Part shown: one piece after another, positions 12,277-57,741 of the stretch | Layout of the letters: each line of letters starts with the position of its first letter | Numbering within the stretch: position 1 is the stretch's first letter | DNA from: Brachyhypopomus gauderio | Taxonomy: Eukaryota; Chordata; Actinopteri; Gymnotiformes; Hypopomidae | Length of the DNA: 64,000 nt | Assembly (NCBI RefSeq): GCF_052324685.1 | Contig: NW_027506894.1 | Location: forward strand, 62,001 to 126,000 | Direction: 5' to 3' | The notes under the pieces: generated by a model | What the model was told of the DNA's origin: nothing | Database searches by the model: none | The model's input: the letters and a program-made list of their open reading frames with translations, nothing else | Translations under genes and position numbers: made by a program

Positions 12277-12313
12277 ATGGAAACCATCTCTGTGCTCCTC
12301 TCTCTACTGTTGG
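12277..12313 (+). CDS. Signal-peptide exon, lectin gene A
   Basis: The ATG at 12277 has an A at -3 and a G at +4 (accATGg) and opens METISVLLSLLLG, a short signal-peptide-like hydrophobic run. The donor is TTGG/GTAAAT, leaving phase 1, which matches the phase of every downstream CTLD exon. An upstream ATG at 12266 is in another frame and is not preferred. Confidence 0.75.
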
Positions 12314-15300
12314 GTAAATATTCACTAATAACCACTAGGCTCAAAACACCTGTTTGCTCTGAACATATTCAGTATGAATTTGTGATTCCTACGCATATTT
12401 GATTAATCAAATTATTATCTGGTGGAAAAAAATTATTTTCACAATGTCAAAGTGGTCTGGACACCAATTGTTTTCAGGTTCCAGTGTATGTTTTACAGTT
12501 CATTAACATAAATGTTATATTAATATTAATGTCGCTGTAACGTGGGGAAGAGGCACGACGAGGCATGTGTAACGAACAAGGCTGGGCAGGTAGGACGCAG
12601 ATGCAGAATTCAGAGGTTTAATATAAACGACTAACACAAAAGAGTATAATACATACAAAGACCAAAGATGACAAGCAAGATAACACAAAAAGACACAGAG
12701 AGCATGAACTAACTGAACAACAACCACTACACACGACTAGAACATTAGACTTAATCCTTTCACTGATAACATACAACGTTCAACTTACAAGCTACAATAA
12801 CCCACAACCACAGAGACCAAACACAGGACTTAAATGCACTGACTAAACAAGGAACACAACAAGACACACCTGAAAGTGATAACGAGGGGCAGAGAACACG
12901 GCAGGGGTGTGAAAACAGTGGCTGTGTTCGAAATAGACTACTACATACTGGATACTGCATACTGGACTCAGTATATACTGGATACTGCATACTGGTCCTC
13001 GTAGTAGTATGCAGTACAGTTTTCAGTATGCGACAAAAGCAAAGCACACTACGGGGTCACGTGAACGTAGCGTTGCATGATGGGATGCAGTACACCACAA
13101 AGATAGCTCTGTTCACGTACTGGAATATTTTGCGGAAGTAGTAGGTCATCCGGGTATGTTTCACGTACTGGAAATTTTCATTTTGGTCACATACTGCATA
13201 CTGGATACTGAGTACTGGGGCTCGATCAGTACGCCAGTAGTATGTAGTAGACTATTTCGAACACAGCCAGAGACAACTAGGAAATGTCAAAATAAAAGAC
13301 ACTCAAACACACAGAGAACAAAACAAAAGACAAGACTGACGGGGGAGGCAGGACCACACGACGAGGCACATTGCGGTGAAAACACACATTTTAATTAACA
13401 AAGACGGTGGAGACCAGCGCGAGTAGCATTAACATTAAAACACATACACACAGGCACGAGCTTTAGACAAAGACGATCACGAGACATTGTGCGAACGCAC
13501 ATTAAATAGATGAAGTACACAATCCCCAGTTGTAACAGTCAGAACTATACACTGATCACTGTTACACACTGATCACGAGACGAGACACAGGTGAGACAGA
13601 TGAACACGCTCACACACAACCCCACGGAGATACATATACGGTCATAACCAGACTCAGATGACATAAACACACGCCCAAAAGGAGGGGTCTGGAGCTGCTC
13701 CGTGACAGTTGCCATTTACTTATGAGAAGAATTTACGTTTTAACCAGTTACACCAGTTACAAGATGAAACTGAATATTTAAGTAGCAATAAATAAATAAA
13801 TGTAAAGACCATGCTGTTAAGTCGTACTGAGAGGCGGCGGACACAAGTATGATTGAGGGTTTATTTACAGGAAGGACACTGTCAACATTATCAACCTCTT
13901 TTAAACTCACCATGACAACACGGTGGGCATGACGACAGCGATGCATGACAAACAGACTTATAGGACTAACACCAAGACTATAAGATGAAGACAGAACTAC
14001 CAGAATATAACTTAACACACACAGTGAACACAGACAGATGATGTGAACAAGGCAGATACTCTACAGAAGGGATACACATAGACCAACTAAACACACTAGA
14101 CATACAACCAGACTAAACCAGGTACACACAGAAATACAGAAACCAGAACATAGAACAATGAGATCATAACCTTGAGCAGTGATAAATGACCTACACAGAC
14201 CTCACCAAGATTCATACACTGACCCACAAGACTCAACACTAGAGGTACAAACAAGACAGACAGAACAAGACACAAGGAGCAAAAACAGAGACATGACTGA
14301 CAGACAGGAGGAGCTAAACTGGAGACACAAACAAGACTGACAGATGTGGGCGGGGCTAGATGTGACATGTAAATAATGTAGTGAATTTTGACTAATAAGA
14401 TTTTTGCTTCCTCTTGTCATGTTTGGTTTCTACTTTCTCACAACCCACTACTTCCACTAACGGTGATGATCAATCCTGCCAAACTTACAATAAGAGATTT
14501 TAAGAGATAGATTTATTTCATTCACTGAAAAGCGAGACTTGTTTTTCTTCATGTATCTACTATTTTATAAATATTTCTTTGAGTGGTAGTTGAGTAATAT
14601 AAAACTTTACACTGTGCTATTTAAAAATGTCACTGTAATATAAAACTTTACACTGTAAGCTTTATTTAAAAACCTGATTGAGCACATGGCACCACTTACA
14701 AACAAGAAATATCAAACATACTAAAAAATACCCAACATAATTCTCCTCTCATGTGAACTGGTCCATGTGTACCATACAAGTCACATGCTGTGTGTTTCCT
14801 GTTCAGCTGAGCTGAAGGTTATGTGCACCCCTGTTCACCCCCCAGTTCAACTCCCAAATTCATCTGTCCACCAAAGTCTTCTGGCGTTGAACATCTTTCA
14901 GATGGAAAGGACAGAGGAAATGTTAATACTAGTGGTGGGCCGTTAACGGCGTTAACGGCTTTCGTTAATTTGATACTCTTATCGGGCGATATAAAAATTA
15001 TCGCCGTTAATCTATTCTTAAAGTTGGGTTGGGAACTGGGTCAAAATGGGTAAGCAAACTATGATGACTTTCAACTTGATAGTTTAGCTCGGCTGTATTC
15101 CTAACCAAATTGCACAGTAGGGGCGAGAACGAGTTTTCAAACCTGTGAATTACAAATCGTACGTGTGTTTACATGGATGCAGCCACAAAGTCGCCAGGTT
15201 TGCTTCATGGAAAATTCATTTTAGGAACGTAAAATGTTACCGGAGCGGATATAGGGGTAGATGTGAAGAACTGGGGTAGAACTGGGGTAGATGTGACAGG

Positions 15301-18300
15301 GCTGATGTAACGGGGTAGATGTAACGGGGTAGATATGAAGGACTGGGGTAGATGTAGCAGGGTAGACATGATGGGGTAAATGTGAAGGGTATTAACTAGG
15401 GGTGGGCATAGATAAATTTTTTTAATCTAGATTAATCTCACTGAAATCTTGAAATTAATCTACTATATTAAAATGGCTCATATGCGTGCTACCCAAGTAA
15501 TGACTAAAAGTCAGTTTTTGAGATGGGGTTTCTTAATACAGAGGGTGCATTAGACCAGGGGCTCATCTCCTGTTTCCAAAATGCATCAATGACTGCTTGA
15601 GAAAGCTGTTCTACTTTGATACTTGAAGAAAAAAAACATGCTCAATAAAATGTAGGCTACTCGTGTTCAACGGTTTATTCAGTTAAACATGAATTTGTAA
15701 GCCTACATACTGTAAATTAAAAGTGGTTGATAACATGTTAATTAAGCTAAACCAGGGCTTAATTTGTAAATCAAACGTTGCCGGAACGCATTTTAACCTG
15801 AGCGAGGGGGGGGGGGGGGGGGGGGGGGTGGTGGTTTGGCGAACGTAAGTAGTTGAGCGGGGGGGGGGGGGGGGGGGGGGTGGCGAACATAAAATGTACA
15901 CAGATTAAGTGTTATATCGCCGGTGGTTGGCGTCAGAGCTAGCGAACTAGTAACTCACGCAATGCGTGAGAGTTGGCAGCCCTGCGGACAACATAAAATG
16001 TTACCGGATCGAGGCAGACAGTTACCGGAACGCACGCTTCAAAATTAAAGAGTTCCCGGATCCTGTTCCGGCAGGATCCGGCTCAAATTAAGCCCTGAGC
16101 TAATCATGATATTTGAAATGTAAGCCAACATTTAGTACATTTAACCTCACGGATGTAATTTGGGGGGGACTTTTTCAAAAGTCGGTTTTGGTCCTCTTGT
16201 TGGAAAATGATTTTGAATAGAGCATAGCTGTGTTGATTAACTGCTAAGCATAATGTAAAGTGTTAACAATCAAATTGTACACCATGTTCCAAGAAAGATC
16301 TGACAGGCATATATTCTGAAAACTCGAGCAGCCTGTGTCAACAAAAGAAGACCTTAGTTTGCGAATGCACTTGACCTTTCGATACACTTGTGGTGAGCTC
16401 GCTGCACCTGGCTCTGGGCGAGTTTATTTTGGGCACACGCCAGAGATAAAGGTGTAGAGAGATGGAGGGTCGCAGAACATCGGTGTCGGGGAAGGGTGAG
16501 AGTTGAGATAGATGGGTGCACACAAACTTCTGTTGACAGAGGTGTTGCACAGACTGGGACCGGGGAGAAAGTGCGGGGGGGGGTTAACCTTTGTACTTAC
16601 CTGTGTTGCTCGGAAAATAACTGAAGAGAGCTGAAGAGAGAATTGGTATAAAAGGAGAGAGTTTGCCCAGTTCGAAGCTTCTTGCTCCGACTCTGCTATA
16701 TGACTTACTTGGCTTTAGTAGATTTAAGGCAATTAAGCCCTAGTGCACTAGAATACATTTGTACCACGTATACTCTATACTCTGATTAATCTGCATTTGG
16801 CTTTATACAATACAAGTTGGATACAAAAGAACTTTTGGTGTCAAGACTTTATTTGAATTGTCCACTCAACAACCTGTCGGTCCATCGGGGCAGTGTTGGG
16901 GCCCGTCTGGGTCAACGGACACTCTGCAGTTTTAACGGTTAAAAATAAATATTTAAATAGCGACGAATCTAGCGCTAGGACCTTGCATTCCTGACAGTTT
17001 CATATCAGACCAACATCACCCCATCACTGAGTCACTAAGAAGAGAAACTTTTCCAGTCTTTTCTGCTGCAGGTGGAAGTCGTCTCAGAACATTCCACATC
17101 ACAGGATATGAGAATCTGACTCAGTCTGAGGCTCAAACAGCTTGTAGAAGAAACTACACCGACCTCGTCACTGTGTACAGTGAGGAAGACAACAGTGTAC
17201 TGGCTAATCTGACTGAGGAGGCTGGATTATATGCTGCCTGGATTGGGCTCCAACGCAGTCAGCCCAGATGGTCTAATGGTGATGCAGTTACATTCAGAGA
17301 CTTAACACAAGACTGTGGGACATGGAGCTGCTGTGTTGCTGTGAAGGCTGAGGGTTCATGGGAGTGTGATAACTGCACACAGAAAAAGAATTTTATGTGT
17401 TATAAACAAGGTAAATACTTACTATAGAGGTTTCAACCATATTAAATACTATAATTATTGATGTCATCACCTTTAAGTCTAAACATATAATTAAGGATTG
17501 ATTTGTTAATTGTTTAATCACTGCAGATTCGTGCCACAGTTATCAGTTAGTGCTTGAGCCAATGTCCTGGTATGAAGCCCAGAGATACTGCAGGGAGAAA
17601 TACACTGATCTGGTCAGCATCAGAGATCAGGAGCAAAATGAAGAGGTGAATCTGAATGGGAAGATCAGCACCACCCCCTTCTGGATCGGCCTGCTGTGTG
17701 ATGACTGGGAGTGGACTGATGGAGGACTCTCCACCTACAGGAACTGGGGGACTGATCAGCCTCAGAGACCAGGAGACTGTACAAAACTGCAAAGAGGGAA
17801 ATGGATCTCAGTGTCATGTAATACTGGTTTTCCTGCTCTGTGCTACCACAGTAATGCCACAGGTATCACAACACACGCCCACAGCACTGGAGAACAATCC
17901 TGACAGTTTCATATCAGACCAACATCACCCCATCACTGAGCCACTAAGAAGAGAAACTTTTCCAGTCTTTTCTGCTGCAGGTGGAAGTCGTCTCAGAACA
18001 TTCAACATCACAGGATATGAGAATCTGACTCAGTCTGAGGCTCAGACAGCTTGTAGAAGAAACTACACCGACCTCATCACTGTGTACAGTGAGGAAGACA
18101 ACAGTGTACTGGCTAATCTGACTGAGGAGGCTGGATTATATGCTGCCTGGATTGGTCTCCAACGCAGTCAGCCCAGATGTAAATGGTCTAATGGTGATGC
18201 AGTTACATTCAGAAACTCAACACAACACTGTGGGACATGGAGCTGCTGTGCTGCTATGAAGGCTGAGGGTTCATGGGATTGTAATAACTGCACACAGAAA

Positions 18301-21300
18301 AAGAATTTTATGTGTTATAAACAAGGTAAATACTTACTATAGAGGTTTCAACCATATTAAATACTATAATTATTGATGTCATCACATTTAACTCTAAACA
18401 TATAATTAAGGATTGATTTGTTAATTGTTTAATCACTGCAGATTCGTGCCACAGTTATCAGTTAGTGCTTGAGCCAATGTCCTGGTATGAAGCCCAGAGA
18501 TACTGCAGGGAGAAATACACTGATCTGGTCAGCATCAGAGATCAGGAGCAAAATGAAGAGGTGAATCTGAATGGGAAGAACAGCACCACCCCCTTCTGGA
18601 TCGGCCTGCTGTGTGATGACTGGGAGTGGACTGATGGAGGTCTCTCCACCTACAGGAACTGGGAGACTGATCAGCCTCAGACAACAGGAGACTGTACAAC
18701 ACTGCTAGGAGGGAAATGGATCTCAGTGTCATGTAATACTGGTTTTCCTGCTCTGTGCTACCACAGTAATGCCACAGGTATCACAACACATGCCCACAGC
18801 ACTGGAGAACATTCCTTACAGTTTCTAATCAGACCATAGTATAACATCACCCCATCACTGAGTCACTAAGAAGAGAAACTTTTCCAGTATTTTCTGCTGC
18901 AGGTGGAAGTCGTCTCAGAACATTCCACATCACAGGATATCAGAATCTGACTCAGTTTGAGGCTCAGACAGCTTGTAGAAGAAACTACACCAACCTCGTC
19001 ACTGTGTACAGTGAGGAAGACAACAGTGTACTGGCTAATCTGACTGAGGAGGCTGGATTATATGCTGCCTGGATTGGTCTCCAACGCAGTCAGCCCAGAT
19101 GTAAATGGTCTAATGGTGATGCAGTTACATTCAGAAACTCAACACAACACTGTGGGACATGGAGCTGTTGTGCTGCTATGAAGGCTGAGGGTTCATGGGA
19201 TTGTAATAACTGCACACAGAAAAAGAATTTTATGTGTTATAAACAAGGTAAATACTTACTATAGAGGTTTCAACCATATTAAATACTATAATTATTGATG
19301 TCATCACCTTTAAGTCTAAACATATAATTAAGGATTGATTTGTTAATTGTTTAATCACTGCAGATTCGTGCCACAGTTATCAGTTAGTGCTTGAGCCAAT
19401 GTCCTGGTATGAAGCCCAGAGATACTGCAGGGAGAAATACACTGATCTGGTCAGCATCAGAGATCAGGAGCAAAATGAAGAGGTGAATCTGAATGGGAAG
19501 AACAGCACCACCCCCTTCTGGATCGGCCTGCTGTGTGATGACTGGGAGTGGACTGATGGAGGTCTCTCCACCTACAGGAACTGGGAGACTGATCAGCCTC
19601 AGACAACAGGAGACTGTACAACACTGCTAGGAGGGAAATGGATCTCAGTGTCATGTAATACTGGTTTTCCTGCTCTGTGCTACCACAGTAATGCCACAGG
19701 TATCACAACACATGCCCACAGCACTGGAGAACATTCCTTACAGTTTCTAATCAGACCATAGTATAACATCACCCCATCACTGAGTCACTAAGAAGAGAAA
19801 CTTTTCCAGTATTTTCTGCTGCAGGTGGAAGTCGTCTCAGAACATTCCACATCACAGGATATCAGAATCTGACTCAGTTTGAGGCTCAGACAGCTTGTAG
19901 AAGAAACTACACCAACCTCGTCACTGTGTACAGTGAGGAAGACAACAGTGTACTGGCTAATCTGACTGAGGAGGCTGGATTATATGCTGCCTGGATTGGT
20001 CTCCAACGCAGTCAGCCCAGATGTAAATGGTCTAATGGTGATGCAGTTACATTCAGAAACTCAACACAACACTGTGGGACATGGAGCTGTTGTGCTGCTA
20101 TGAAGGCTGAGGGTTCATGGGATTGTAATAACTGCACACAGAAAAAGAATTTTATGTGTTATAAACAAGGTAAATACTTACTATAGAGGTTTCAACCATA
20201 TTAAATACTATAATTATTGATGTCATCACCTTTAAGTCTAAACATATAATTAAGGATTGATTTGTTAATTGTTTAATCACTGCAGATTCGTGCCACAGTT
20301 ATCAGTTAGTGCTTGAGCCAATGTCCTGGTATGAAGCCCAGAGATACTGCAGGGAGAAATACACTGATCTGGTCAGCATCAGAGATCAGGAGCAAAATGA
20401 AGAGGTGAATCTGAATGGGAAGAACAGCACCACCCCCTTCTGGATCGGCCTGCTGTGTGATGACTGGGAGTGGACTGATGGAGGTCTCTCCACCTACAGG
20501 AACTGGGAGACTGATCAGTCTCAGAGAACAGGAGACTGTACAAAACTGCAAAGAGGGAAATGGATCTCAGTGTCATGTAATACTGGTTTTCCTGCTCTGT
20601 GCTACCACAGTAATGCCACAGGTATCACAACACATGCCCACAGCACTGGAGAACATTCCTGACAGTTTCTAATCAGACCATAGTATAACATCACCCCATC
20701 ACTGAGTCACTAAGAAGAGAAACTTTTCCAGTATTTTCTGCTCCAGGTGGAAATCGTCTCAGAACATTCTACATCATTGTGGATGAGAGTCTGACTCAGT
20801 CTGAGGCTCAGACAGCTTGTAGAAGAAACTACACCGACCTCGTCACTGTGTACAGTGAGGAAGACAACAGTGTACTGGCTAATCTGACTGAGGAGGCTGG
20901 ATTATATGCTGCCTGGATTGGGCTCCAACACAGTCGGCCCAGTTATAAATGGTCTAATGGTGATGCAGTTACATTCAGAAACTCAACACAACAGTGTGGG
21001 TCATTAAGCTGCTGTGCTACTATGATGGCTAATGGTTCATGGGAGAGTAATAACTGCACAGAGAAAAATCATTTTATGTGTTATAAACAAGGTAAAAACT
21101 TAATATAGATGTTTTAACAATATTACAAACTGTAATTATTGATATCATCACATTCAAAGATATAATTAATAATCGATTTTAATTTCATGTGCTATAAATA
21201 TGGTAACAACCTGACTGGAACTATTGATAAATTCCTTATTCATATCAACCTCATAACTTCAATTGCATAAACATAAATAAACCGTGTTTACCTTTGACCT

Positions 21301-22091
21301 CTACAGGTGTTATTAGAGCCATGTTCAGTTATCAGTTAGTGCTTGAGCCAATGTCCTGGTATGAAGCCCAGAGATACTGCAGGGAGAAATACACTGATCT
21401 GGTCAGCATCAGAGACCAGGAGCAAAATGAAGAGGTGAATCTGAATGGGAAGAACAGCACCACCCCCTTCTGGATCGGCCTGCTGTGTGATGACTGGGAG
21501 TGGGCTGATGGAGGTCTCTCCACCTACAGGAACTGGAGATCTCGTGTCCCTCAGCCATGTGATTGTGTAAAACTGATGAAGGATGAATGGTCTCCATCAG
21601 CGTGTAATGATCCTGCATCTGCTCTGTGCTACAGCAGTAAGTCATGATGTTACCAACACTAAAATGTTCTCTGCAGTCTAGATCAGTAGAATGAAGAAGT
21701 GTCTCTGGTGTTTGTGTCTCTGTCAGCATCCATCCATGTGAGTGAGGTCAGGATGATCTGGGAGAAAGCTCTGGACTACTGTCAGGAAGGTAACAGGTCT
21801 GGTCTCCTACGCATTGAGTCTGACCTCGACCAGAAAGAAGTGGAGTCTGAACTCAGAAGGAATAAAGTCCCTGGGCCTGTGTGGGTGGGGCTTAAACAGA
21901 GCCGACTCTTTGGGTTCTGGATTTGGTCCAATGGGATGGTTGTGGGATCTTGGACCAACTGGAAGGGAGGAAGACAGCCAGAACTTCCCCTGTCTCACCA
22001 GTGTGGCGCCATAGAAACACGAGATCAAGGCTACATGTGGATGGACATGAACTGTAGGAATGAACTCAGAGTTTTATGTGAAGTGAAATGA
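12277..22091 (+). CDS. Secreted C-type lectin with 11 tandem CTLDs (copy A)
   Basis: Predicted spliced gene. Exon 12277-12313 encodes a hydrophobic signal-peptide start (METISVLLSLLLG). CTLD exons follow at 17072-17410, 17527-17862, 17981-18325, 18442-18777, 18903-19247, 19364-19699, 19825-20169, 20286-20621, 20747-21091, 21307-21636 and 21727-22091 (stop TGA). All internal junctions are phase 1, have AG/GT sites and join into an open frame of about 1264 codons. Two domain types alternate: A (GSRLRTF... WSNG... CGTWSCC) and B (SCHSYQL... WIGLLCDDWEW). The last domain is distinct (GFWIWSNG... WMDMNC). No transmembrane segment is visible, so the product is probably secreted. C-type lectins bind glycans or proteins; the ligand is unknown. 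The layout recalls fish CLEC20A-like or mannose-receptor-like proteins, but orthology is unproven. The exon order rests on splice sites only; use of fewer exons, or more than one gene, is possible. Confidence 0.75.
12566..13358 (-). mobile_element. Nested LTR-like insertion, copy A only
   Basis: TG...CA-ended segment (tgtgtaacgaac to caggaccaca) inserted within the older LTR. The direct repeat cacgacgaggca lies at 12554-12565 and 13357-13368, overlapping the element end, so the exact duplication length is uncertain. The paralogous LTR in copy A' is uninterrupted here. On the minus strand it has LTR character. It carries its own nested MITE (12920-13268). Confidence 0.7.
12920..13268. mobile_element. 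MITE with about 30-bp terminal inverted repeats
   Basis: Starts ggctgtgttcgaaatag and ends with the inverted match ctatttcgaacacagcc. The interior is built of repeated actggatactgcatactg-like motifs. Total about 349 bp. A one-ended relative lies at about 35735-35850. It is nested two levels deep, inside an LTR inside another LTR. Confidence 0.8.
13775..14375. repeat. Dispersed repeat in lectin intron, shared by both copies
   Basis: A block ending gatgtgaca (about 14367) has many short minus-strand frames and resembles another LTR, but its left boundary and target duplication are unclear. Its counterpart is at about 52440-53035. Called only as a shared repeat-like block. Confidence 0.4.
14801..14929 (+). 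other. Possible skipped or lost stalk exon
   Basis: After an acceptor-like cctgttcag (ending 14805), an in-frame phase-1 stretch reads AELKVMCTPVHPPVQLPNSS and continues to about 14929. A convincing donor is not visible and an element (14930) cuts its downstream side. In copy A' the same stretch is extended by VHPP repeats. It may be an old linker exon or intronic sequence open by chance. Confidence 0.25.
14930..15243. mobile_element. hAT-like element end at inversion breakpoint
   Basis: Begins tagtggtgggccgttaacgg directly after gttaatac (14922-14929). The same octamer in inverted form (gtattaac, 15389-15396) precedes taggggtgggcatag, which matches the terminus. This is the pattern expected if a hAT-like element with an 8-bp duplication was split by a later inversion. 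Confidence 0.6.
15244..15396 (-). repeat. Inverted GGGGTAGATGTGA satellite segment
   Basis: A degenerate repeat of gggtagatgtga-type units. Copy A' holds the same segment in the opposite orientation (53669-53815, reading cttcacatctacccc). Both ends here abut transposon-like termini. Confidence 0.8.
15397..16989. mobile_element. Mobile-element patchwork in lectin intron, copy A only
   Basis: Begins with taggggtgggcatagat, contains two poly-G runs (about 15806-15828 and 15859-15880) and short motifs such as ttgagcgggg and atgcgtgagagttggcagccct that recur in fish DNA transposons. The end, near 16928-16972 (aatagcgacgaatctagc), resembles the element at 60346-60671. No transposase frame was found. 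Copy A' lacks this block. Confidence 0.55.
17072..17410 (+). CDS. Lectin A, CTLD exon A1
   Basis: Phase 1-1 exon of 339 bp. It is 6 bp shorter than other A-type exons because the codons before WSNG (CK or YK elsewhere) are missing, giving SQPRWSNG. Keeps the WIGL core and the terminal NC...C pattern. Confidence 0.78.
17527..17862 (+). CDS. Lectin A, CTLD exon B1
   Basis: 336 bp, phase 1-1. Reads DSCHSYQL, MSWYEAQRYCREKYTDL, FWIGLLCDDWEW and WISVSCNTGFPALCYH. Lacks EPN/QPD and WND calcium-site motifs of classical sugar-binding CTLDs. Confidence 0.8.
17981..18325 (+). CDS. Lectin A, CTLD exon A2
   Basis: 345 bp, phase 1-1. Contains six N-X-S/T sequons (NIT, NLT, NYT, NLT, NST, NCT) in about 115 residues. 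Differs from A3 and A4 in reading GYENLTQSEAQ and DLITVY. Confidence 0.8.
18442..18777 (+). CDS. Lectin A, CTLD exon B2
   Basis: 336 bp, phase 1-1, identical in translation to exon B3. First exon of the 922-bp unit that is repeated almost unchanged. Confidence 0.8.
18903..19247 (+). CDS. Lectin A, CTLD exon A3
   Basis: 345 bp, phase 1-1. Reads GYQNLTQFEAQ and NYTNLVTVY, changes shared only with A4, so A3 and A4 are sister copies. Confidence 0.8.
19364..19699 (+). CDS. Lectin A, CTLD exon B3
   Basis: 336 bp, phase 1-1, same translation as B2. Begins the second 922-bp unit. Confidence 0.8.
19825..20169 (+). CDS. Lectin A, CTLD exon A4
   Basis: 345 bp, phase 1-1, same translation as A3 as far as compared. 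Confidence 0.8.
20286..20621 (+). CDS. Lectin A, CTLD exon B4
   Basis: 336 bp, phase 1-1. Differs from B2/B3 near its end, with GDCTKLQRGKW as in B1 instead of GDCTTLLGGKW, which marks the edge of the recent duplication. Confidence 0.8.
20747..21091 (+). CDS. Lectin A, CTLD exon A5
   Basis: 345 bp, phase 1-1, a diverged A-type domain (NRLRTFYIIVDESLTQ, CGSLSCCATMMANGSW). Its closest match is the second A exon of copy A' (54913-55257), so these two are positional counterparts. Confidence 0.8.
21307..21636 (+). CDS. Lectin A, CTLD exon B5
   Basis: 330 bp, phase 1-1, following the acceptor tgacctctacag. Starts GVIRAMFSYQLV instead of DSCHSYQLV, so the extra N-terminal Cys is missing. Ends CVKLMKDEW...ALCYS before the donor AGCA/GTAAGT. 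Confidence 0.8.
21727..22091 (+). CDS. Lectin A, terminal CTLD exon with stop codon
   Basis: 365 bp ending in TGA. Reads IHVSEVRMIWEKALDYC, PVWVGLKQS, GFWIWSNG, GGRQPELPLSHQCG and YMWMDMNCRNELRVLCE. Of all domains in the gene it comes closest to a classical Ca-binding CTLD, with RQPE in place of QPD/EPN and WMDMNC in place of WND..C. No membrane segment follows. Confidence 0.82.
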
Positions 22092-22884
22092 TCTGACTGG
22101 TGCTCTTCAATCATTCAGGATATTTCACACACATGCCAACACACCACACGTTACAACTTGTTTCATAATCTACAGTGCTGCAATAACCACCCACCCTGCT
22201 TAATACAGTACACAGCAGATGTGAGTACACCCCGTAATATCACAGTCAAATTGTTAAAAAAAATTATAATTTCTTAATAATTGCATTATATCAAAGTTTG
22301 CAAACAGAGATTTTTCTCTTATGTACAATTTAAAAATAAATGATATAGAAAGCTTGCATTAAAAATACTGGCCCCAGTCTAGGAAAAGGAAATACACCTT
22401 TGACGACTGCCACACACCTTACAACATATGTTGGTATTGAAACAAAACAGAGTACAGTGGTTTTCCAATTAGCTGAACTGCATAAAAATGTTTATTAAGC
22501 AGCACAATGCGTCAAGGCTCCATGGGAAATAATTGCCGGAGGTGTTGAAAAATCAGACTGTAACACACAAAGACTGAAGAGGAAGACCTGTCCCTAGTTG
22601 AAGGTCAGTTGAAACAGTAATCACTGAACAAGCCAGAGATCCTCTAACTGTGACTGTGTAGGCTGTCCTCAAAACATTATGCCACAGACAACGCGCTATT
22701 TACACAGTCTAGATCTGGGAAACAGACAGGCCAGTGGGGCTGTCAGTGGAAGCACAGTGTCTGTGTCAGCTCAGACAGGGCAAAGGACATTGTGTAAAGT
22801 CAATCTGTGTGGACAGCATACAGGACAAAAACCTTTCATTGCCCATCACAACAAATATGCAAGATTAAACTTAGGGAATGGATG
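22092..22884. other. Lectin 3' flank, no other gene seen
   Basis: Probable 3' untranslated and flanking sequence, conserved in copy A' (56099-56904). Short frames only. Confidence 0.55.
22335..22340 (+). promoter_or_regulatory. Candidate poly(A) signal, lectin gene A
   Basis: AATAAA hexamer about 245 bp after the stop codon. The same hexamer follows lectin gene A' at 56336-56341. Confidence 0.4.
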
Positions 22885-23168
22885 GTCCCGCAAGAGAAGC
22901 ACAGTCCCGCACGGTCCTGACAGAGAAGCACAGTCCCCCATGGTCCTGACAGAGAAGCACAGTCCCGCATGGTCCTGACAGAGAAGCACAGTCCCGCATG
23001 GTCCTGACAGAGAAGCACAGTCCCACATGGTCCCGACAGAGAAGCACAGTCCCGCATGGTCCTGACAGAAAAGCACAGTCCCGCATGGTCCTGACAGAGA
23101 AGCACAGTCCCGCATGGTCCTGACAGAAAAGCACAGTCCCACATGGTCCCAACAGAGAAGCCCAGAGC
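22885..23168. repeat. 29-bp minisatellite (copy A)
   Basis: About ten units of a 29-bp repeat, gacagagaagcacagtcccg followed by catggtcct. Because 29 is not a multiple of 3 and the unit has no minus-strand stop, all three minus frames stay open. The predicted 117-151-residue proteins are artefacts. Copy A' has a longer array (56905-57330). Confidence 0.93.
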
Positions 23169-23572
23169 GGGGAGTGGGATGATATGGGGCTGAATGAGCA
23201 CAGAACGTATTGGGAAGAGGACATTTGAAGGTGAATACCATGAATTCCTCTGGATATTTGAACATTCTGGCTGACCAGATGATTCAGTCACCAGAACCTT
23301 CTCAGAAGAGGAATATTCCCACTTGATAATAATCCGAAACAGACAAAATCACACAGAGTTCCCAAAGAAAAAGTGGATATGATGGCGTGTCGGAGCGAGA
23401 CAGCAGTGCAGCAGAGAGCAGACATGGTGTCTGAAGAACCACACAGTATCTGTCACTAATAACAGCGGTGAATGGAGCACTGACCTGTGCTCTTGCTGAG
23501 TCCATACTGTAGGGCCTGTGTTTTTTATTGTAATGTGACCTAAATATGATGATCTGGCATTGACACTGCACA

Positions 23573-23834
23573 GGGGTTAGTGTTAGGGGTTAGGGTTAGA
23601 GTTAGGGGTTAGTGTTAGGGGTTAGTGTTAGAGTTAGGGGTTAGTGTTAGAGTTAGGGGTTAGTGTTAGAGTTAGGGGTTAGTGTTAGGGGTTAGTGTTA
23701 GAGTTAGGGGTTAGTGTTAGTGTTAGGGGTTAGTGTTAGAGTTAGGGGTTAGTGTTAGGGGTTAGTGTTAGGGTTAGGGGTTAGTGTTAGAGTTAGGGGT
23801 TAGTGTTAGAGTTAGGGGTTAGTGTTAGAGTTAT
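23573..23834. repeat. Interstitial telomere-like array (copy A)
   Basis: Degenerate array of TTAGGG-related units, mostly ttaggggttagtg and ttagagttagggg mixtures, about 262 bp. The exact TTAGGG hexamer recurs but is not perfectly tandem. Unique sequence continues on both sides, so this is interstitial. Copy A' carries a longer array. Confidence 0.92.
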
Positions 23835-28593: not shown

Positions 28594-28809
28594 GTGAGTT
28601 ATAAATATTATGAGAACCTCTTAACTCTGGTATTTACTTCTTTCTGCCTTATTTCTGAAAGGAGTCTAAACTCCCTCAGCTGGATAAAGGACTACAGTGA
28701 CTGATTCTCTCCTGTGCTACTGTGTTTATTACAGAAGATCTAAAAGTCAAAGTGAAGTTTGTACAGAAGGAGACATTACAGAGAAACAGCACAGCAGCTG
28801 TTGGAGGAA

Positions 28810-31800
28810 ATGGCTGCTATAAACCCTCTGTCAGAAGAAGAGTTTTCATGTCCTGTGTGCTGTGACATCTTCAGGGATCCTGTTATACTGTCATGTAGCC
28901 ACAGTGTGTGTAAAACCTGTCTGCAGCAGTTCTGGGAAACCAAGGGATCTCAAGAATGTCCAGTTTGTAGGAGAAGATCTTCAAGAGATGATCCTCCCTG
29001 TAATCTTGCACTAAAGAACCTGTGTGAGTCTTTTCTAGCGAGCAGGAGTCAGAGATCTTCAGCAGGGTCTGAGGTGCTCTGCAGTCTGCACAATGAGAAA
29101 CGCAAACTCTTCTGTCTGGAGGACCTACAGCCTGTGTGTGTGGTGTGTCAGATTTCAAAGGCACATAAAACTCATGACTGCCTTCCAGTAGAGGAAGCTG
29201 TGTGTCACTTTAAGGTATGAAATGTGCACTAATGCTTTAACTGTAATGTTTTTCCAATGTTTACAATTATCTTGAAATATATGTTAGACAGGTTAGATTA
29301 AATGAGTCAGATGATGAGATTTCAGACAACTAAATCAGACCTTCATTCGCCGTGAAACTTAATATAGATAAAAATATTGATATACAATCTGCTACGATAT
29401 ATCAAACATCTCCATTTTATATTAAAAGGATGAAAAGGAATCAGTAATCACGCCATTGTGTTCAGTCGTTGTAATCTCCTATACAGATACAGTGATGAAT
29501 CCTGTAAGACTCACACTGTCCTCTACTAAACCCATATTTACAGAACAAATTCAAGACCACACTGGAGTCTCTACAACAGCATCTGAAGGTCTTGGAGGAA
29601 GATAAACAAGTCTGTGAGAAAACAGCAGCACACATTAAGGTGAAAGGTCACTCTGAGTTCTGAATGGTGCTGTGATCACTGTCCACGTACACCATAATGA
29701 AACACACACATTTGGACAGTTTATATTTCCTCATCATCTCGCATTCCAGTATCAGGCCCAGCACACAGAGAGGCAGATAAAGGAGGAGTTTGAGAAGATC
29801 CACCAGTTTCTAAGAGATGAAGAAGCAGCAAGAATAGCTGCATTGAAGGAGGAAGAGGAGCAGAAGAGCCACATGATGTGGAGGAAGATTATGAAGATGA
29901 GTGGAGAAATAGCATCTCTTTCAGATCAAATCAAATACACAGAGAAGGAGATGGAAGCTGAGAACATATCGTTCATACTAGTAAGAATCACTCAGTCTGT
30001 CTCTCACTTAGACATACGCTCAAAACATGTTAAATACACCAATGTAGAAGAAAAAGAAAATAAATCACTCTGACCACCATCTTTCACTAACTCTCTCTCT
30101 CACACACACACACACAAATGCACACAAAAAAGTAAAATGTTTTGACGTTTGTTTTTGTGTGTGTGTAAGGGTCTTTAGACACATTAATTTTATTATCACA
30201 TAATGAAAAGGCATATTTGACCCTCGTATAAAGAAAATGTCCCTGTTTCCTTCTCAGAATGTGTCGTCCACATTGAAATTGTAAGTGATCATTATTTCTG
30301 TTTGATCTCCATATTGTTACACATTGTGTTTGTGAAATTATTCTGATACATTCAGATCTTCAGTATGTGGTCTGTGTTATTTCAGAAATATGATATATGA
30401 AGAAGGTATTTAGAAATAAAAAATATATATTGATATTGACAATGTGCAAACATTTCAAAGACATATTGATGGATTTAATTAAGGATATTTCACATGTTAC
30501 TTTTAATGTTAAATACTTTGAATAAGATAAAAAATAATCTATTATATTTAATAATATAATATCTTTATACATTTCCAGTGTTGATCACACCCCAAAGGAA
30601 CATGAGATGGTGTCAGGAGCTCTGATCAATGTAGCAAAACATCTTTCCAACCTGAAGTTCAGAGTCTGGGAGAGAATGCAGAAGATTCTCCAGTACTGTG
30701 AGTTTTGGTGTTCTTTGATTAATTAGAGTAATTCTGTTCTCCTCACAATTAGAACTCTATAGAGAGAGAAACATTAACATTGTGTGTTTGGTACATGAAC
30801 TATTCCAGTATTAAAGGCTGTATTAGTATAAACAGTGAGGGGGACGACCAGTTGACTGCTGGTCTGAGGAGAGACAGTCAGTCCATGAGGAGATCTACAC
30901 CACCCACTCTCCACCTCTACACACCACCCACTCTCCACCTCTACACGCCACCCACTCTCCACCTCTACACGCCACCCACTCTCCACCTCTACACGCCACC
31001 CACTCTCCACCTCTACACGCCACCCACTCTCCACCTCTACACGCCACCCACTCTCCACCTCTACACGCCACCCACTCTCCACCTCTACACGCCACCCACT
31101 CTCCACCTCTACACCACACCACCCACTCTCTCCACCTCTACACACCACCCACTCTCCCTGGGACATCCCCACCTCCACCTGCTCCTCCATCCTGCCTCCT
31201 CCTCCATCCTGTAAATAATGAAGATACTAGGGGTCTATAGGAAGACCGGTACCCTGAGTCTGAGCTCCATGAATCTCCATCCCTGAGGGACCAAGCGTGT
31301 CAGCTGGGACTCTGCCTTGTCTCTGTGTCTGTCTCTGTCTGTCTCCCTGTCATAATCTTTGTGTCTGTGTATTTTCTTTTCTGCGTCCCTGTCACCGCCT
31401 TTGTTTCTGTGTTTGACTCTGTCTTTGGCCCTGTCTCCATCTTTGTATCTGTCCCAGTGTTGTCCTTTGAGTTTTTGTCCCACCCCCTCAAGTGGTGAAT
31501 GAAGCAACTTTCTTTACTCGTGTCTGCGTTATTCCGATACGTAAAGGAAACTTCCCCAAAGCTCTGTGATGAACAAAACAAAACGGTTGTTTATTCCAGG
31601 CTGTACATGCGATGAAATAAACTTAAAACAAAACTTTCAAACCATGGTTAGGTCGTTCCAAATATATGGTGCAGCACAAATCGTAACGCTAAACACGGTA
31701 AGAAAACTGTGTTGCTACCAGTATTCTCAAATACTCACTTCTCCCCTAAAGTCAACATGAGCTTCCCGCCCCGTCTCCACTTTGCTCTTAAAGAGACAGT

Positions 31801-42410: not shown

Positions 42411-42942
42411 CAAAAACTAGTACCGGGTCCTAAAGCCCTGCAGATACCCCACAATACACAATTAGGTGCTTCCGTTACATAAATATTTACTTTAAATTGT
42501 TTTGTTGCACTCCTATGTAATGAGTAAATATAAAACCTGAAATCGAGTTAGTGGACGTTTCCCTGATTCAAGTACTTGATAGTAAACTGGCGCCATCTGG
42601 TGGAACAATAATAGTTTTTCACCTCCTTTATTTCTTTACTAAAGCTCCTCCTCCCTGTACACGCCTGCCTGTATGAGGAAGTAAATCTGGGAATGCCACA
42701 CGAGTCTTTATTAATTCTGCGTTCAGGTGAGTTATAAATATTATGAGAACCTCTTAACTCTGGTATTTACTTCTTTCTGCCTTATTTCTGAAAGGAGTCT
42801 AAACTCCCTCAGCTGGATAAAGGACTACAGTGACTGATTCTCTCCTGTGCTACTGTGTTTATTACAGAAGATCTAAAAGTGAAAGTGAAGTTTGTACAGA
42901 AGGAGACATTACAGAGAAACAGCACAGCAGCTGTTGGAGGAA

Positions 42943-47846
<4,904 letters not shown>

Positions 47847-51723: not shown

Positions 51724-54700
51724 ATGGAAACCATCTCTGTGCTCCTCTCTCTACTGTTGGGTAAATATTCACTAATAATCACTAGGCTCAAAACACCTGT
51801 TTGCTCTGAACATATTCAGTATGAATTTGTGATTATTACGCATATTTGATTATTCAAATTTTTATCTGGTGGAAAAAATTATTTTCACAATGTCAAAGTG
51901 GTCTGGACACCAATTGTTTTCAGGTTCCAGTGTATGTTTTACAGTTCATTAACATAAATGTTATATTAATATTAATGTTGCTGTAACGTGGGGAAGAGGC
52001 ACGACGAGACACGTTGTGGTGAAAACACACTTTTAATTAACGAAGACGGTGGAGTCCAGCGCGAGTAGTGCACACAGCACTCTTAACATTAAAACACACA
52101 CACACAGGCACAAGCTTTAGACAAAGACGATCACGAGACATTGTGCGAACGCACATTAAATAGATGAAGTACACAATCCCCAGTTGTAACAGTCAGAACT
52201 ATACACTGATCACTGTTACACACTGATCACGAGACGAGACACAGGTGAGACGGATGAACACGCTCACACACAACCCCACGGAGATACATATACGGTCATA
52301 ACCAGACGCAGATGACATAAAAACACACGCCCAAAAGGAGGGGTCTGGAGCTGCTCCGTGACAGTTGCCTTTTACTTATGAGAAGAATTTATGTTTAACC
52401 AGTTACATGTCAACATATTGAAAGCTGAAACTGAATATTTAAGTAGCAATAAATAAATAAATGTAAAGACCATGCTGTTAAGTCGTACTGAGAGGCGGCG
52501 GACACAAGTGTGATTGAGGGTTTATTTACAGGAAGGACACTGTCAACATTATCAACCTCTTTTGAACTCACCATGACAACACGGTGGGCATGACGACAGC
52601 GAGGCATGACAAACAGACTTATAGGACTAACACCAAGACTATAAGATGAAGACAGAACTACCAGAATATACCTTAACACACACAGTGAACACAGACAGAT
52701 GATGTGAACAAGGCAGATACTCTACAGAAGGGATGCACATAGACCAACTAAACACACTAGACATACAACCAGACTAAACCAGGTACACACAGAAATTCAG
52801 AAACCAGAACGTAGAACAATGAGATCATAACCTTGAGCAGTGATAAATGACCTACACAGACCTCACCAAGATTCATACACCGACCCACGAGACTCAACAC
52901 TAGAGGTACAAACAAGACAGACAGAACGAGACACAAGGAGCAAAAACAGAGACATGACTGACAGATAGGAGGAGCTAAACTGGAGACACAAACAAGACTG
53001 ACAGATGTGGGCGGAGCTAGATGTGACACGTAAATAATGTAGTGAATTTAGACTAATAAGATTTTTGCTTCCTCTTGTCATATTTGGTTTCTACTTTCTC
53101 ACAACCCACTACTTCCACCAATGGTGAGGATCAATCCTGCCAAACTTACAATAAGAGATTTTAAGAGATAGATTTATTTCATTCACTGAAAAGCGAGACT
53201 TGTTTTTCTTCATGTATCTACTATTTTATAAATATTTCTTTGAGTGGTAGGATTGAGTAATATAAAACTTTACACTGTGCTATTTAAAAATGTCAATGTA
53301 ATATAAAACTTTACACTGTAAGCTTTATTTAAAAACCTGATTGAGCACATGGCACCACTTACAAACAAGAAATATCAAACATACTAAAAAATACCCAACA
53401 TAATTCTCCTCTCATGTGAACTGCTCCATGTGTACCATACAAGTCACATGCTGTGTGTTTCCTGTTCAGCTGAGCTGAAGGTTATGTGCACCCCTGTTCA
53501 CCCTGTTCACCCCCCTATTCACCCCCCAGTTCACCCCCCTGTTCACCCTGTTCACCCCCCTATTCACCCTCCAGTTCACCCCCCTGTTCGACTCCCAAAT
53601 TCATCTGTCCACCAAAGTCTTCTGGGGTTGAACATCTTTCAGATGGAAAGGACAGAGGAAATGTTAATACCCTTCACATTTACCCCATCACGTCTACCCT
53701 GCTACATCTACCCCAGCCCTTCACATCTACCCCATCACATCTACCCTGCTACATCTACCCCATTACATCTGCCCTGTCACATCTACCCCAGTCCTTCACA
53801 TCTACCCCTATAGCCTCATTACTGTTACTCAGTGCCATGTAATAATGTTGAATCTGATCTGTGCTACCACAGTAGTGCCACATCACAACACACGCCCACA
53901 GCACTGGAGAACATTCCTGACAGTTTCATATCAGACCAATATCACCCCATCACTGAGTCACTAAGAAGAGAAACTTTTCCAATCTTTTCTGCTGCAGGTG
54001 GAAGTCGTCTCAGAACATTCAACATCACAGGATATGAGAATCTGACTCAGTCTGAGGCTCAGACAGCTTGTAGAAGAAACTACACCGACCTCGTCACTGT
54101 GTACAGTGAGGAAGACAACAGTGTACTGGCTAATCTGACTGAGGAGGCTGGATTATATGCTGCCTGGATTGGGCTGTACCACAGTCAGCCCAGATATAAA
54201 TGGTCTAATGGTGATGCAGTTACATTCCGAGACTCAACACAAGACTGTGGGACATGGAGCTGCTGTGTTGCTATGAAGGCTGAGGGTTCATGGGAGACTG
54301 GTAACTGCACAGAGAAAAAGAATTTTATGTGTTATAAACAAGGTAAATACTTACTATAGAGGTTTCAACCATATTAAATACTATAATTATTGATGTCATC
54401 ACCTTTAAGTCTAAACATATAATTAAGGATTGATTTGTTAATTGTTTAATCACTGCAGATTCGTGCCACAGTTATCAGTTAGTGCTTGAGCCAATGTCCT
54501 GGTATGAAGCCCAGAGATACTGCAGGGAGAACTACACTGATCTGATCAGCATCAGAGATCAGGAGCAAAATGAAGAGGTGAATCTGAATGGGAAGAACAG
54601 CACCACCCCCTTCTGGATCGGCCTGCTGTGTGATGACTGGGAGTGGGCTGATGGAGGTCTCTCCACCTACAGGAACTGGGGGACTGATCAGCCTCAGACA

Positions 54701-56098
54701 ACAGGAGACTGTACAAAACTGCAAAGAGGGAAATGGATCTCAGTGTCCTGTAATACTGGTTTTCCTGCTCTGTGCTACCACAGTAATGCCACAGGTATCA
54801 CAACACACGCCCACAGCACTGGAGAACATTCCTGACAGTTTCATATCAGACCAATATCACCCCATCACTGAGTCACTAAGAAGAGAAACTTTTCCAGTCT
54901 TTTCTGCTGCAGGTGGAAGTCGTCTCAGAACATTCCACATCATTGTGGATGAGAGTCTGACTCAGTCTGAGGCTCAGACAGCTTGTAGAAGAAACTACAC
55001 CGACCTTGTCACTGTGTACAGTGAGGAAGACAACAGTGTACTGGCTAATCTGACTGAGATGGTGCATCCCAGTACTGCCTGGATTGGGCTGTACCACAGT
55101 CAGCCCAGTTATAAATGGTCTAATGGTGATGCAGTTACATTCAGAAACTCAACACAACAGTGTGGGACATGGAGCTGTTGTGTTGCTATGATGGCTAATG
55201 GTTCATGGGATTGTAATAACTGCACAGAGAAAAATCATTTTATGTGTTATAAACAAGGTAAATACTTACTATAGAGGTTTCAACAATATTACAAACTGTA
55301 ATTATTGATATCATCACATTCAAAGATTTACTTAAGAATCAATTTTAATTTCATGTGCTATAAATATGGTAACAACCTGACTGGAACTATTGATAAATTC
55401 CTTATTCATATCAACCTCATAACTTCAATTGCATAAACATAAATAAACCGTGTTTACCTTTGACCTCTACAGATGTTATTAGAGCCATGCTCAGCTCAGG
55501 CTGGGAGTGGGCTGATGGAGGTCTCTCCACCTACAGGAACTGGAGATCTTGTGTCCCTCAGCCATGTGATTGTGTAAAACTGATGAAGGATGAATGGTCT
55601 CCATCAGCGTGTAATGATCCTGCATCTGCTCTGTGCTACAGCAGTAAGTCATGATGTTACCAACACTAAAATGTTCTCTGCAGTCTAGATCAGTAGAATG
55701 AAGAAGTGTCTCTGGTGTTTGTGTCTCTGTCAGCGTCCATCCATGTGAGTGAGGTCAGGATGATCTGGGAGAAAGCTCTGGACTACTGTAAGGAAGGTCA
55801 CAGGTCTGGTCTCCTGCGCATTGAGTCTCACCTCGACCAGAAAGAAGTGGAGTCTGAACTCAGAAGGAATAACGTCTCTGGGCCTGTGTGGGTGGGGCTT
55901 AGACAGAGCCGACTCTTTGGGTTCTGGATTTGGTCCAATGGGATGGTTGTGGGATCTTGGACCAACTGGAAGGGAGGAAGACAGCCAGAACTTCCCCTGT
56001 CTCACCAGTGTGGCGCCATAGAAACAAGAGATCAAGGCTACATGTGGATGGACATGAACTGTAGGAATGAACTCAGAGTTTTATGTGAAGTGAAATGA
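51724..56098 (+). CDS. Secreted C-type lectin with 5 CTLDs, one truncated (copy A')
   Basis: Shorter paralogue of the 11-domain gene. Signal-peptide exon 51724-51760 encodes the same METISVLLSLLLG start. CTLD exons: A1' 53998-54342, B1' 54459-54794, A2' 54913-55257, B2' 55473-55643 (only 171 bp), terminal 55734-56098 (TGA). All junctions are phase 1 and join into about 432 codons. B2' has lost the N-terminal half of its CTLD in frame (from the SYQL start through FWIGLLCDD). The terminal CTLD keeps GGRQPE and WMDMNC. No transmembrane segment is visible, so secretion is predicted. Upstream, 53829-53880 is a dead remnant of another B exon. Expression and exon use are unproven. Confidence 0.72.
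51982..52363. mobile_element. Solo LTR, uninterrupted copy
   Basis: 382 bp, TGTAACGTGGGG to CTCCGTGACA, flanked by the 5-bp duplication gttgc at 51977-51981 and 52364-52368. Counterpart of the interrupted LTR at 12536-13707, so inserted before the segmental duplication. Confidence 0.88.
52440..53035. repeat. Dispersed repeat in lectin intron, copy A'
   Basis: Counterpart of 13775-14375, possibly another LTR (ends gatgtgacacg). Boundaries uncertain. Confidence 0.4.
53471..53668 (+). other. Possible stalk exon with VHPP repeat expansion
   Basis: After the acceptor-like cctgttcag, the phase-1 frame reads AELKVMCTPVHP and then repeated VHPPIHPPVHPP units from tandem ttcacccccctg repeats (about 53495-53590). 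Copy A has a single VHPPVQ. No clear donor is visible; it may be an intronic minisatellite that happens to be open. Confidence 0.25.
53669..53815 (+). repeat. ACATCTACCCC satellite, uninverted copy
   Basis: Degenerate units of cttcacatctacccc. Same segment as 15244-15396 but in the opposite orientation and directly joined to gttaatac on its left. Confidence 0.85.
53829..53880 (+). pseudogene. Remnant of a lost B-type CTLD exon
   Basis: The sequence ctcagtgccatgtaataatg and ctgtgctaccacagtagtgcc matches the last 50 bp of B exons (CNTGFPALCYHSNAT), but the donor has been deleted (ccacatcac instead of ccacaggtatcac). It shows that copy A' once had at least one more A+B pair. Confidence 0.78.
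53998..54342 (+). CDS. Lectin A', CTLD exon A1'
   Basis: 345 bp, phase 1-1, reading FNITGYENLTQSEAQ, GLYHSQPRYKWSNG and CGTWSCCVAMKAEG. Six sequons or near-sequons as in A2. Confidence 0.78.
54459..54794 (+). CDS. Lectin A', CTLD exon B1'
   Basis: 336 bp, phase 1-1. ENYTDLISIRD gives one extra sequon compared with the EKYTDL of other B exons. Confidence 0.78.
54913..55257 (+). CDS. Lectin A', CTLD exon A2'
   Basis: 345 bp, phase 1-1, reading FHIIVDESLTQ and EMVHPSTAWIGLYHSQPSYKW. EMVHPST replaces the EEAGLYA of other A domains, a local patch of divergence. Confidence 0.78.
55473..55643 (+). CDS. Lectin A', truncated CTLD exon B2'
   Basis: 171 bp, phase 1-1. Reads DVIRAMLSSGWEWADGG, jumping from the exon start to the second half of the domain. 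Relative to B5 of copy A an in-frame deletion of about 159 bp removed the first conserved Cys and the WIGL core. RSCVP replaces RSRVP, adding a Cys. Confidence 0.75.
55734..56098 (+). CDS. Lectin A', terminal CTLD exon with stop codon
   Basis: 365 bp ending in TGA, same motifs as 21727-22091, with a few substitutions (EGHRSG for EGNRSG, NNVSGP for NKVPGP, which creates an NVS sequon). Confidence 0.8.
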
Positions 56099-56904
56099 TC
56101 TGACTGGTGCTCTTCAATCATTCAGGATATTTCACACACATGCCAACACACCACACGTTACAACTTGTTTCATAATCTACAGTGCTGCAATAACCACCCC
56201 ACCCTGCTTAATACAGTACACAGCAGATGTGAGTACACCCCGTAATATCACAGTCAAATTGTTAAAAAAATTTCTTAATAATTGCATTATATCAAAGTTT
56301 GCAAACAGAGATTTTTCTCTTATGTACAATTTAAAAATAAATGATATAGAAAGCTTGCATTAAAAATACTGGCCCCAGTCTAGGAAAAGGAAATACACCT
56401 TTGACGACTGCCACACACCTTACAACATATGTTGGTATTGAAACAAAACAGAGTACATTGGTTTTCCAATTAGCTGAACTGCATAAAAATGTTTATTAAG
56501 CAGCACAATGTTGTCAGGTTTGCATGTCTATGTGCGTCAAGGCTCCATGGGAAATAATTGCCGGAGGTGTTGAAAAATCAGACTGTAAAACACAAAGACT
56601 GAAAAGGAAGAGCTGTCCCTAGAATGTCAGTTGAAACAGTAATCACTGAACAAGCCAGAGATCCTCTAACTGTGACTGTGTAGGCTGTCCTCAAAACATT
56701 ATGCCACAGACAACGTGCTACTTACACAGTCTAGCTCTGGGAAACAGACAGGCCAGTGGGGCTGTCAGTGGAAGCACAGTGTCTGTGTCAGCTCAGACAG
56801 GGCAAAGGACATTGTGTAAAGTCAATCTGTGTGGACAGCATACGAGACAAAAACCTTTCATTGCCCATCACAACAAATATGCAAGATTAAATTTAGGGAA
56901 TGGA
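56099..56904. other. Lectin A' 3' flank, no other gene seen
   Basis: Counterpart of 22092-22884, with candidate poly(A) signal AATAAA at 56336-56341. Confidence 0.55.
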
Positions 56905-57330
56905 TGGTCCCGCAAGAGAAGCACAGTCCCGCACGGTCCTGACAGAGAAGCACAGTCCCGCACGGTCCTGACAGAGCAGCACAGTCCCGCATGGTCCCGC
57001 AAGAGAAGCACAGTCCCGCACGGTCCTGACAGAGAAGCACAGTCCCGCACGGTCCTGACAGAGAAGCACAGTCCCAAATGGTCCTGACAGAGAAGCACAG
57101 TCCCAAATGGTCCTGACAGAGAAGCACAGTCCCGCACGGTCCTGACAGAGAAGCACAGTCCCAAATGGTCCTGACAGAGAAGCACAGTCCCAAATGGTCC
57201 TGACAGAGAAGCACAGTCCTGCATGGTCCTGACAGAGCAGCACAGTCCCGCATGGTCCTGACAGAGAAGCACAGTCCTGCATGGTCCTGACAGAGAAGCA
57301 CAGTCCTGCATGGTCCTGACAGAGAAGCCC
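56905..57330. repeat. 29-bp minisatellite (copy A')
   Basis: About 15 units of the gacagagaagcacagtcc repeat, with caaatggtcct, gcacggtcct and gcatggtcct variants. Longer than copy A. Minus-strand frames of up to 200 residues are artefacts. Confidence 0.93.
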
Positions 57331-57741
57331 AGAGCGGGGAGTGGGATGATATGGGGCTGAATGAGCACAGAACGTATTGGGAAGAGGACATTTGAAGGTG
57401 AATACCATGAATTCCTCTGGATATTTGAAAATTCTGGCTGACCAGATGACTCCCAGTCACCAGATCCTTCTCAGAAGAGGAATATTCTCACATGATAATA
57501 ATCCGAAACAGACAAAATCACACAGAGTTCCCAAAGAAAATGTGGATATGATGGTGTGTCGGAGAGAGACAGCAGTGCAGCAGAGAGCAGACATGGTGTC
57601 TGAAGAACCACACAGTATCTGTCACTAATAACAGCGGTGAATGGTGCACTGACCTGTGCTCTTGCTGAGTCCATACTGTAGGGCCCGTGTTTTTTATTGT
57701 AATGTGACCTAAATATGATGATCTGGCATTGACACTGCACA

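Follow-up and report, generated by a model that had tools for sequence, protein, structure and literature searches.

How does a gene come to encode eleven CTLDs, each on an exon of its own, when a close paralogue in the same stretch of DNA has five CTLD exons, and are such differences made in whole exon pairs? We followed this question in a window of 64,000 nucleotides from Brachyhypopomus gauderio (C50:62001-126000 of a 796.5 Mb assembly; positions below are those of the window) and in a census that covers that assembly. Very probably, the two genes belong to a ten-gene family, built of CTLD exons of the types A, B and C, that changes its number of A+B pairs by misaligned recombination. It is a clear but essentially familiar case of domain number changing by unequal recombination.

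The exon array of gene A

The array of gene A at 17072-22091 on the forward strand comprises 11 CTLD exons in the order A1 B1 A2 B2 A3 B3 A4 B4 A5 B5 C, that is, five A+B pairs and a terminal C exon (Table 1). The ten A/B exons are 330-345 nt long, all multiples of three, all in phase 1-1 and all with AG and GT at their borders; the signal exon (37 nt), which leaves its reading frame in phase 1, connects to A1. The complete model is open over 1264 codons and has one stop, the terminal one, which bears out both the 11 domains and the approximately 1264 codons that the initial annotation had proposed for this copy. Its statement that every CTLD exon is symmetric (phase 1-1) holds for the ten A/B exons and fails for the terminal C exon, which is not symmetric because it carries the stop codon. 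In a Pfam scan of seven exons of the window (five of gene A and two of the second copy, A'), all seven matched PF00059, six of them above the cut-off of 22.6 bits and the truncated B2' below it at 20.7. Most introns that separate the CTLD exons of gene A measure 116-125 nt; A5-B5 (215 nt) and B5-C (90 nt) are the exceptions. Separate genes with first exons of their own between the pairs are unlikely, because introns mostly of 116-125 nt are too short for them.

Successive A exons are spaced by 909, 922, 922 and 922 nt, units 3 and 4 show 7 differences in 922 positions, two A exons and two B exons are exact copies of each other (Table 1), and, when the array is shifted by 922 nt against itself, exact identity extends over as much as 1204 nt: a repeat structure far beyond chance. 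The core of B5 (21326-21536) is 99% identical to B2-B4, and its ends are divergent. At the place of the B-exon stub of sister genes, intron 1 of gene A contains approximately 2 kb of different sequence (14930-16985). This sequence is mostly missing from A', one stretch of about 150 nt matching A' in inverted orientation, and it gives the impression of inserted mobile elements.

Table 1. Exons of the two lectin-like genes in the window.
Feature	Gene	Position	Strand	Remark
Signal-peptide exon	A	12277..12313	+	phase 1 donor (METISVLLSLLLG)
A1 CTLD exon	A	17072..17410	+	
B1 CTLD exon	A	17527..17862	+	
A2 CTLD exon	A	17981..18325	+	extra pair
B2 CTLD exon	A	18442..18777	+	extra pair
A3 CTLD exon	A	18903..19247	+	extra pair; identical to A4
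B3 CTLD exon	A	19364..19699	+	extra pair; identical to B2
A4 CTLD exon	A	19825..20169	+	extra pair
B4 CTLD exon	A	20286..20621	+	extra pair
A5 CTLD exon	A	20747..21091	+	last-type A exon
B5 CTLD exon	A	21307..21636	+	last-type B exon
C CTLD exon	A	21727..22091	+	terminal, with stop codon
Signal-peptide exon	A'	51724..51760	+	
B-exon stub	A'	53828..53880	+	lost B exon
A1' CTLD exon	A'	53998..54342	+	
B1' CTLD exon	A'	54459..54794	+	
A2' CTLD exon	A'	54913..55257	+	last-type A exon
B2' CTLD exon	A'	55473..55643	+	half CTLD; 159 nt internal in-frame deletion relative to B5
C' CTLD exon	A'	55734..56098	+	terminal, with stop codon

Copy A' and its B-exon stub

Copy A' consists of a signal exon followed by A1' B1' A2' B2' C', and its model gives 532 codons instead of the approximately 432 first ascribed to it. 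The five domains with which it had been credited are present as five CTLD exons, of which four are whole and one is half. Its description as two pairs, one of them damaged, plus a terminal CTLD is correct in composition; the supposed damage is common to three other genes. The half-deleted B exon occurs in the same form in L009, L010 and L011, and it is thus an inherited form and not private damage of A'.

The stub of a further B exon, also reported for A', is real but again not private, as it is found in six of the seven C50/C93 genes (A' and L009-L013). The more diverged L014 and L017 carry an upstream intron with its own acceptor ahead of A1. In A' and L009-L011, upstream sequence similar to theirs continues into the 3'-terminal part of a B exon, followed by an intron of the B-to-A type and then by A1; L012 and L013 have the same stub and intron within the 180 bases compared. 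We infer that the ancestor of the C50/C93 cluster had at least three pairs, the first of which was lost by a deletion that left the stub. A tblastn search of the first introns of A, A', L014 and L017 for additional CTLD exons recovered the stub in A' alone (E 0.023), and the same search upstream of L015 gave one match (E 0.93).

A family of ten genes

In the whole assembly the lectin-like family amounts to ten genes with 22 A, 22 B and 10 C exons, all placed in gene models, and all ten models are open up to the terminal stop. The counts from the exon searches, in which all first-look candidates were scored, are lower bounds and equal those of the ten models: ten C exons at 68% identity or more (next at most 31%); 22 A exons at 68% or more (next at most 44%); and, among the B exons, 12 of the first type (at least 90%), six whole ones of the last type (77-78%, two of them hybrid) and four truncated ones (48%). 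The 231 bases around the signal exon of gene A match ten places genome-wide. One of these, L016, is incomplete and is located on the strand of L015, some 53 kb upstream of that gene; L015 itself is without a nearby signal exon, and a complete one is present in nine of the ten genes. A pattern search for relatives in viral contigs returned 35 pattern matches, none of which was confirmed.

Gene A has five pairs, eight genes (A', L009, L010, L011, L013, L014, L015 and L017) have two, and L012 has one, so that the number of CTLD exons per gene ranges from 3, in L012 only, to 11. Since two pairs are the common state (8 of 10 genes), gene A has gained about three pairs and L012 has undergone a loss; A' is by its pair number the common form of the family. 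A tree of the 12 first-type units joins units 2-4 of gene A with a support of 96, and units 3 and 4 with 100; the placement of unit 1 has a support of 28. Mean divergence among the seven C50/C93 copies is 0.9% over 600 nt of 5' flank (range 0.5-1.5%), which argues that the changes of pair number are recent. The proposal that domain number changed strongly among recent paralogues through symmetric pairs is therefore upheld, and the series of five, two and one pairs can now be polarised. The initial annotation went too far in saying that pairs are gained or lost "freely": gains and losses are indeed seen, but 8 of the 10 genes keep two pairs.

Traces of recombination

Two B exons are hybrids at diagnostic sites that were defined without them. 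The single B exon of L012 is of the first type at 16 of 16 sites in its 5' part, and in its 3' part it is of the last type at 49 of 54 sites (four neither, one first-type). B2 of L014 shows the same composition, with 16 of 16 first-type sites at the 5' side and 51 of 54 last-type sites at the 3' side (two neither, one first-type). Hybrids of this kind are what would be left by a crossover inside the near-identical B core. The reciprocal hybrid (last-type 5', first-type 3') was looked for in gene A and is absent; the gain in gene A thus probably used homology in the B-to-A introns and in the A exons.

The PHI test gave p=0.0005 for the A exons (20 unique sequences) and likewise for the B exons (17 sequences), p=0.001 for the last A exons (8 sequences), a weak signal for the C exons (p=0.04; 8 sequences), and no clear signal for the first A exons of the cluster (p=0.07; 7 sequences). 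A and B exons are thereby seen to recombine among units and genes.

In the mechanism that we propose, an A+B pair with its short introns would act as a repeat of approximately 0.92 kb in which each exon is in phase 1-1, and for this reason pairs could change in number without a break of the frame: misaligned recombination would add or remove whole pairs and keep the frame. A crossover within B would have yielded the single-pair gene L012 with its hybrid B exon, and an ancestral deletion that took out the older first pair would have produced the junction and the B stub of the cluster.

Sequence diversity and constraint

Divergence was compared among the C50/C93 genes A, A' and L009-L013. Their mean divergence is 2.9% over 400 nt of 3' flank (0 to 6.7%), 0.9-3.6% over six intron stretches, 2.0% in C, 2.6% in B1 and 3.0% in A1, the first A exons being no more diverged than their own introns (3.0% versus 3.4%). 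The last A exon reaches a mean of 7.4% and a maximum of 12.0% (six cluster genes); set against introns at 0.9-3.6% and other exons at 2.0-3.0%, it is the only exon clearly above its introns. On the tree of last A exons, those of L009-L011 join that of L014 at 92, whereas the 5' flanks unite all seven cluster genes, to the exclusion of L014 and L017, with a support of 99. This conflict points to exchange or to the retention of old lineages. When the exons are split at codon 48, pN/pS goes from 0.71 in the first part to 1.45 in the second for all A exons, from 0.62 to 1.86 for the first A exons of the cluster, and from 0.81 to 0.73 for its last A exons; the value of 0.73 in the second part of the latter speaks for the import of older sequence rather than for selection on new changes.

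Three further observations concern individual exons. The C exons of L014 and L017 start like the others and diverge after about codon 84, so as to be 18.6-20.3% different overall, an exon mosaic. The last A exon of L015 (A2) differs by 14-20% from the remaining A exons; its 3' part is unlike theirs and ends at a different donor. Gene A and L010 share 400 identical bases right after the stop, yet their C exons differ by 3.3%.

Pairwise pN/pS in the window, where both values are above zero, ranges from 0.55 (C) to 2.05. An omega grid was computed for 20 A exons (identical copies and A2 of L015 dropped), 17 B exons (identical and truncated ones dropped) and 8 C exons (L014 and L017 dropped), on trees that ignore recombination; its optimum lies at 1.2 for A, 1.0 for B and 0.5 for C, with gains in lnL over omega 1 of 0.7, 0 and 2.1, respectively. 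With gains of 0-2.1, positive selection across whole exons is not supported. Codons 92-116, the last 25 of the A exon, lie about where sugar-binding CTLDs carry WND; they contain 30 nonsynonymous and 0 synonymous distinct variant bases in 21 of the 22 A exons (one-sided p=0.005, two-sided 0.01, both uncorrected and for a region picked after inspection of the data). Not one of 212 distinct variant nucleotides, a set drawn from all 22 B exons, 21 of the 22 A exons and 8 of the 10 C exons, creates a stop, where 5.6% are expected at random (P=4.5e-6). Five Cys columns are invariant in all 22 A exons and in all 18 whole B exons (the four truncated ones dropped). We read this as a fold that is kept and a surface that evolves loosely or in a diversifying manner; the dN/dS near 1 in the A and B exons could also mean weak constraint. 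Behind a more far-reaching and rather unlikely reading stand the contrast between last A exons up to 12% apart and 5' flanks about 1% apart and the 30 of 30 protein-changing variant bases at codons 92-116: the family might be a diversification engine driven by recombination, in which gain and loss of pairs and the shuffling of A/B exons between genes would be so rapid that pair number and the faces of the A domains of a secreted recognition protein differ between individuals.

Alternative explanations

Units as similar as 3 and 4, with 7 differences in 922 positions, and an exact run of 1204 nt might be an assembly artefact, with 922-nt units duplicated or wrongly counted and a real pair number of gene A other than five. 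We regard this as very improbable, given that a 6-nt deletion is found in A1 only, that the introns preceding A1 and A2 differ by a 7-nt indel from the ones preceding A3-A5, that A2 and A3 differ by 6 of 345 and B3 and B4 by 5 of 336 nucleotides, and that the window lies inside a contig of 1.76 Mb. Assembly could also have left haplotypes unmerged, so that some of the ten genes would be alleles, the family smaller and the pair differences partly allelic. The 0.5-1.5% between C50 and C93 copies over the 600 nt of 5' flank is within the range of heterozygosity of some fish, and gene A and L010 are identical across 400 nt of 3' flank. These same two genes, however, differ by 1.1% in the 5' region and by 3.3% in the C exon, and no pair of genes is therefore closest throughout; in addition, the DNA downstream of L009 ceases to resemble the window from about 25.0 kb on (L023, counting matches of at least 250 nt). 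We consider unmerged haplotypes fairly unlikely. Were the C50/C93 copies alleles nevertheless, pair number would be polymorphic and the reading of pair gain and loss by misaligned recombination would be strengthened.

A relaxed and decaying family, with nonfunctional genes whose pair number drifts neutrally, would agree with the dN/dS near 1 in the A and B exons, with the absence of an adjoining signal exon at L015 and with the half-deleted B exon in four genes. It is unlikely in view of the ten models (of ten) that are open to the terminal stop, the 0 stops among 212 variant nucleotides (P=4.5e-6), the lengths of the exons in the window copies, which differ by multiples of three only, and the invariance of the scaffold cysteines. 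Somewhat more weight may be given, still with doubt, to exon skipping, by which transcripts of one locus would leave out symmetric cassettes and the genomic number of pairs would not equal the number of domains in the protein. As all A/B exons of gene A are in phase 1-1, any skip keeps the frame; the gtatca donor after the first-type B exons, to our judgement of weak consensus, is nevertheless the same in the genes compared. Misaligned recombination of whole pairs in a family of ten genes is the reading that we prefer to all of these.

Predicted protein

CTLDs that bind sugar in a calcium-dependent manner have EPN or QPD in their long loop, with WND ahead of the third cysteine. None of the motifs EPN, QPD, EPD, QPN and WND occurs in the 54 CTLD exons of the ten genes; sugar binding and "lectin valency" are thus unproven and are treated here as putative. 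A transmembrane segment was not found, as the 19-residue hydropathy after residue 30 peaks at 0.86 for gene A and at 1.32 across the family; in gene A the stop follows directly after the C CTLD, and 34 N-glycosylation sequons are present. Because the signal peptide is short, the product of gene A is only putatively secreted. Against a B exon, the PDB chains with the highest whole-chain scores over several CTLDs are PLA2R, FcRY (the yolk-sac IgY receptor) and DEC-205; FcRY, PLA2R and DEC-205 also come out best with an A exon. The predicted structure of the A domain has a mean pLDDT of 70.6 in the best of five models (45-57 in the others), while modelling of the B domain failed, with a mean of 41.4. 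Our best guess from these features is a secreted, multi-headed recognition or binding protein, in which the number of heads would scale with the number of pairs; its role might be in innate recognition, with the ligand bound outside the canonical calcium/sugar site.

Genomic neighbourhood

A large tandem segmental duplication (9863-34798 and about 49335 to beyond the end of the window; L022) is interrupted and mostly approximately 95-98% identical, extends at least 5 kb past the window end, and carries the lectin gene together with TRIM-type exons. RING and B-box coding exons of this type are found at 28756-29217, 42889-43350 and 62636-63097, and a PRY/SPRY exon at 33279-33875; the first two RING/B-box exons and the PRY/SPRY exon were identified by Pfam scan, and the third matches the first over 150 residues. 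TRIM-type exons in duplicated segments fit an immune-gene neighbourhood and prove nothing. A reverse transcriptase fragment (PF00078) lies at 38945-39658 between the two lectin copies, and a 29-nt minisatellite and a GTTAGG-type repeat lie downstream of the lectin genes (22884-23165, 56904-57332 and 23572-23833), the 29-nt array being longer at the second copy.

Comparison with known systems

With one, two and five cassettes and with scars of crossover and deletion, the ten genes form a natural series for the study of domain-number change, and the series is equally suited to asking whether domain number alters binding. Among published titles, in a search mostly outside the subscription literature, none was found that describes such a CTLD array. 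The mannose receptor family of group VI comprises MRC1, MRC2, PLA2R, DEC-205 and FcRY, which are type I transmembrane proteins with N-terminal ricin-type and fibronectin-II domains. The genes described here resemble them in having many CTLDs in a row and in their best PDB chains (PLA2R, FcRY and DEC-205); unlike them, they have no transmembrane segment that we could find, and they devote one exon to each CTLD and contain near-identical repeated pairs.

A closer likeness in build is offered by the fish group F1 of soluble dual-CTLD proteins, which are described as having CTLDs only and no transmembrane segment, as evolving fast, as first taken for fragments of mannose receptors, and as carrying two or three CTLDs, at least one of them with the calcium/sugar residues (Zelensky and Gready 2004, PMC514892). 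The present genes, too, are CTLD-only and without a transmembrane segment, their solubility being predicted from sequence. They differ from the group as there described in having 3 to 11 CTLD exons instead of two or three, and in that none has EPN, QPD or WND where at least one CTLD of F1 has the calcium/sugar residues. The family thus resembles group F1 in build and departs from two of its described features, a comparison made by description only.

The zinc-finger array of PRDM9 is a coding tandem array that changes its number of units by unequal exchange. Like it, the CTLD arrays consist of recent, homogeneous in-frame repeats with both change of number and exchange of sequence; unlike it, each of their units spans two exons with two introns and codes for two CTLDs. 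Should individuals differ in pair number, the family would be a vertebrate CTLD counterpart of such coding arrays shaped by unequal exchange.
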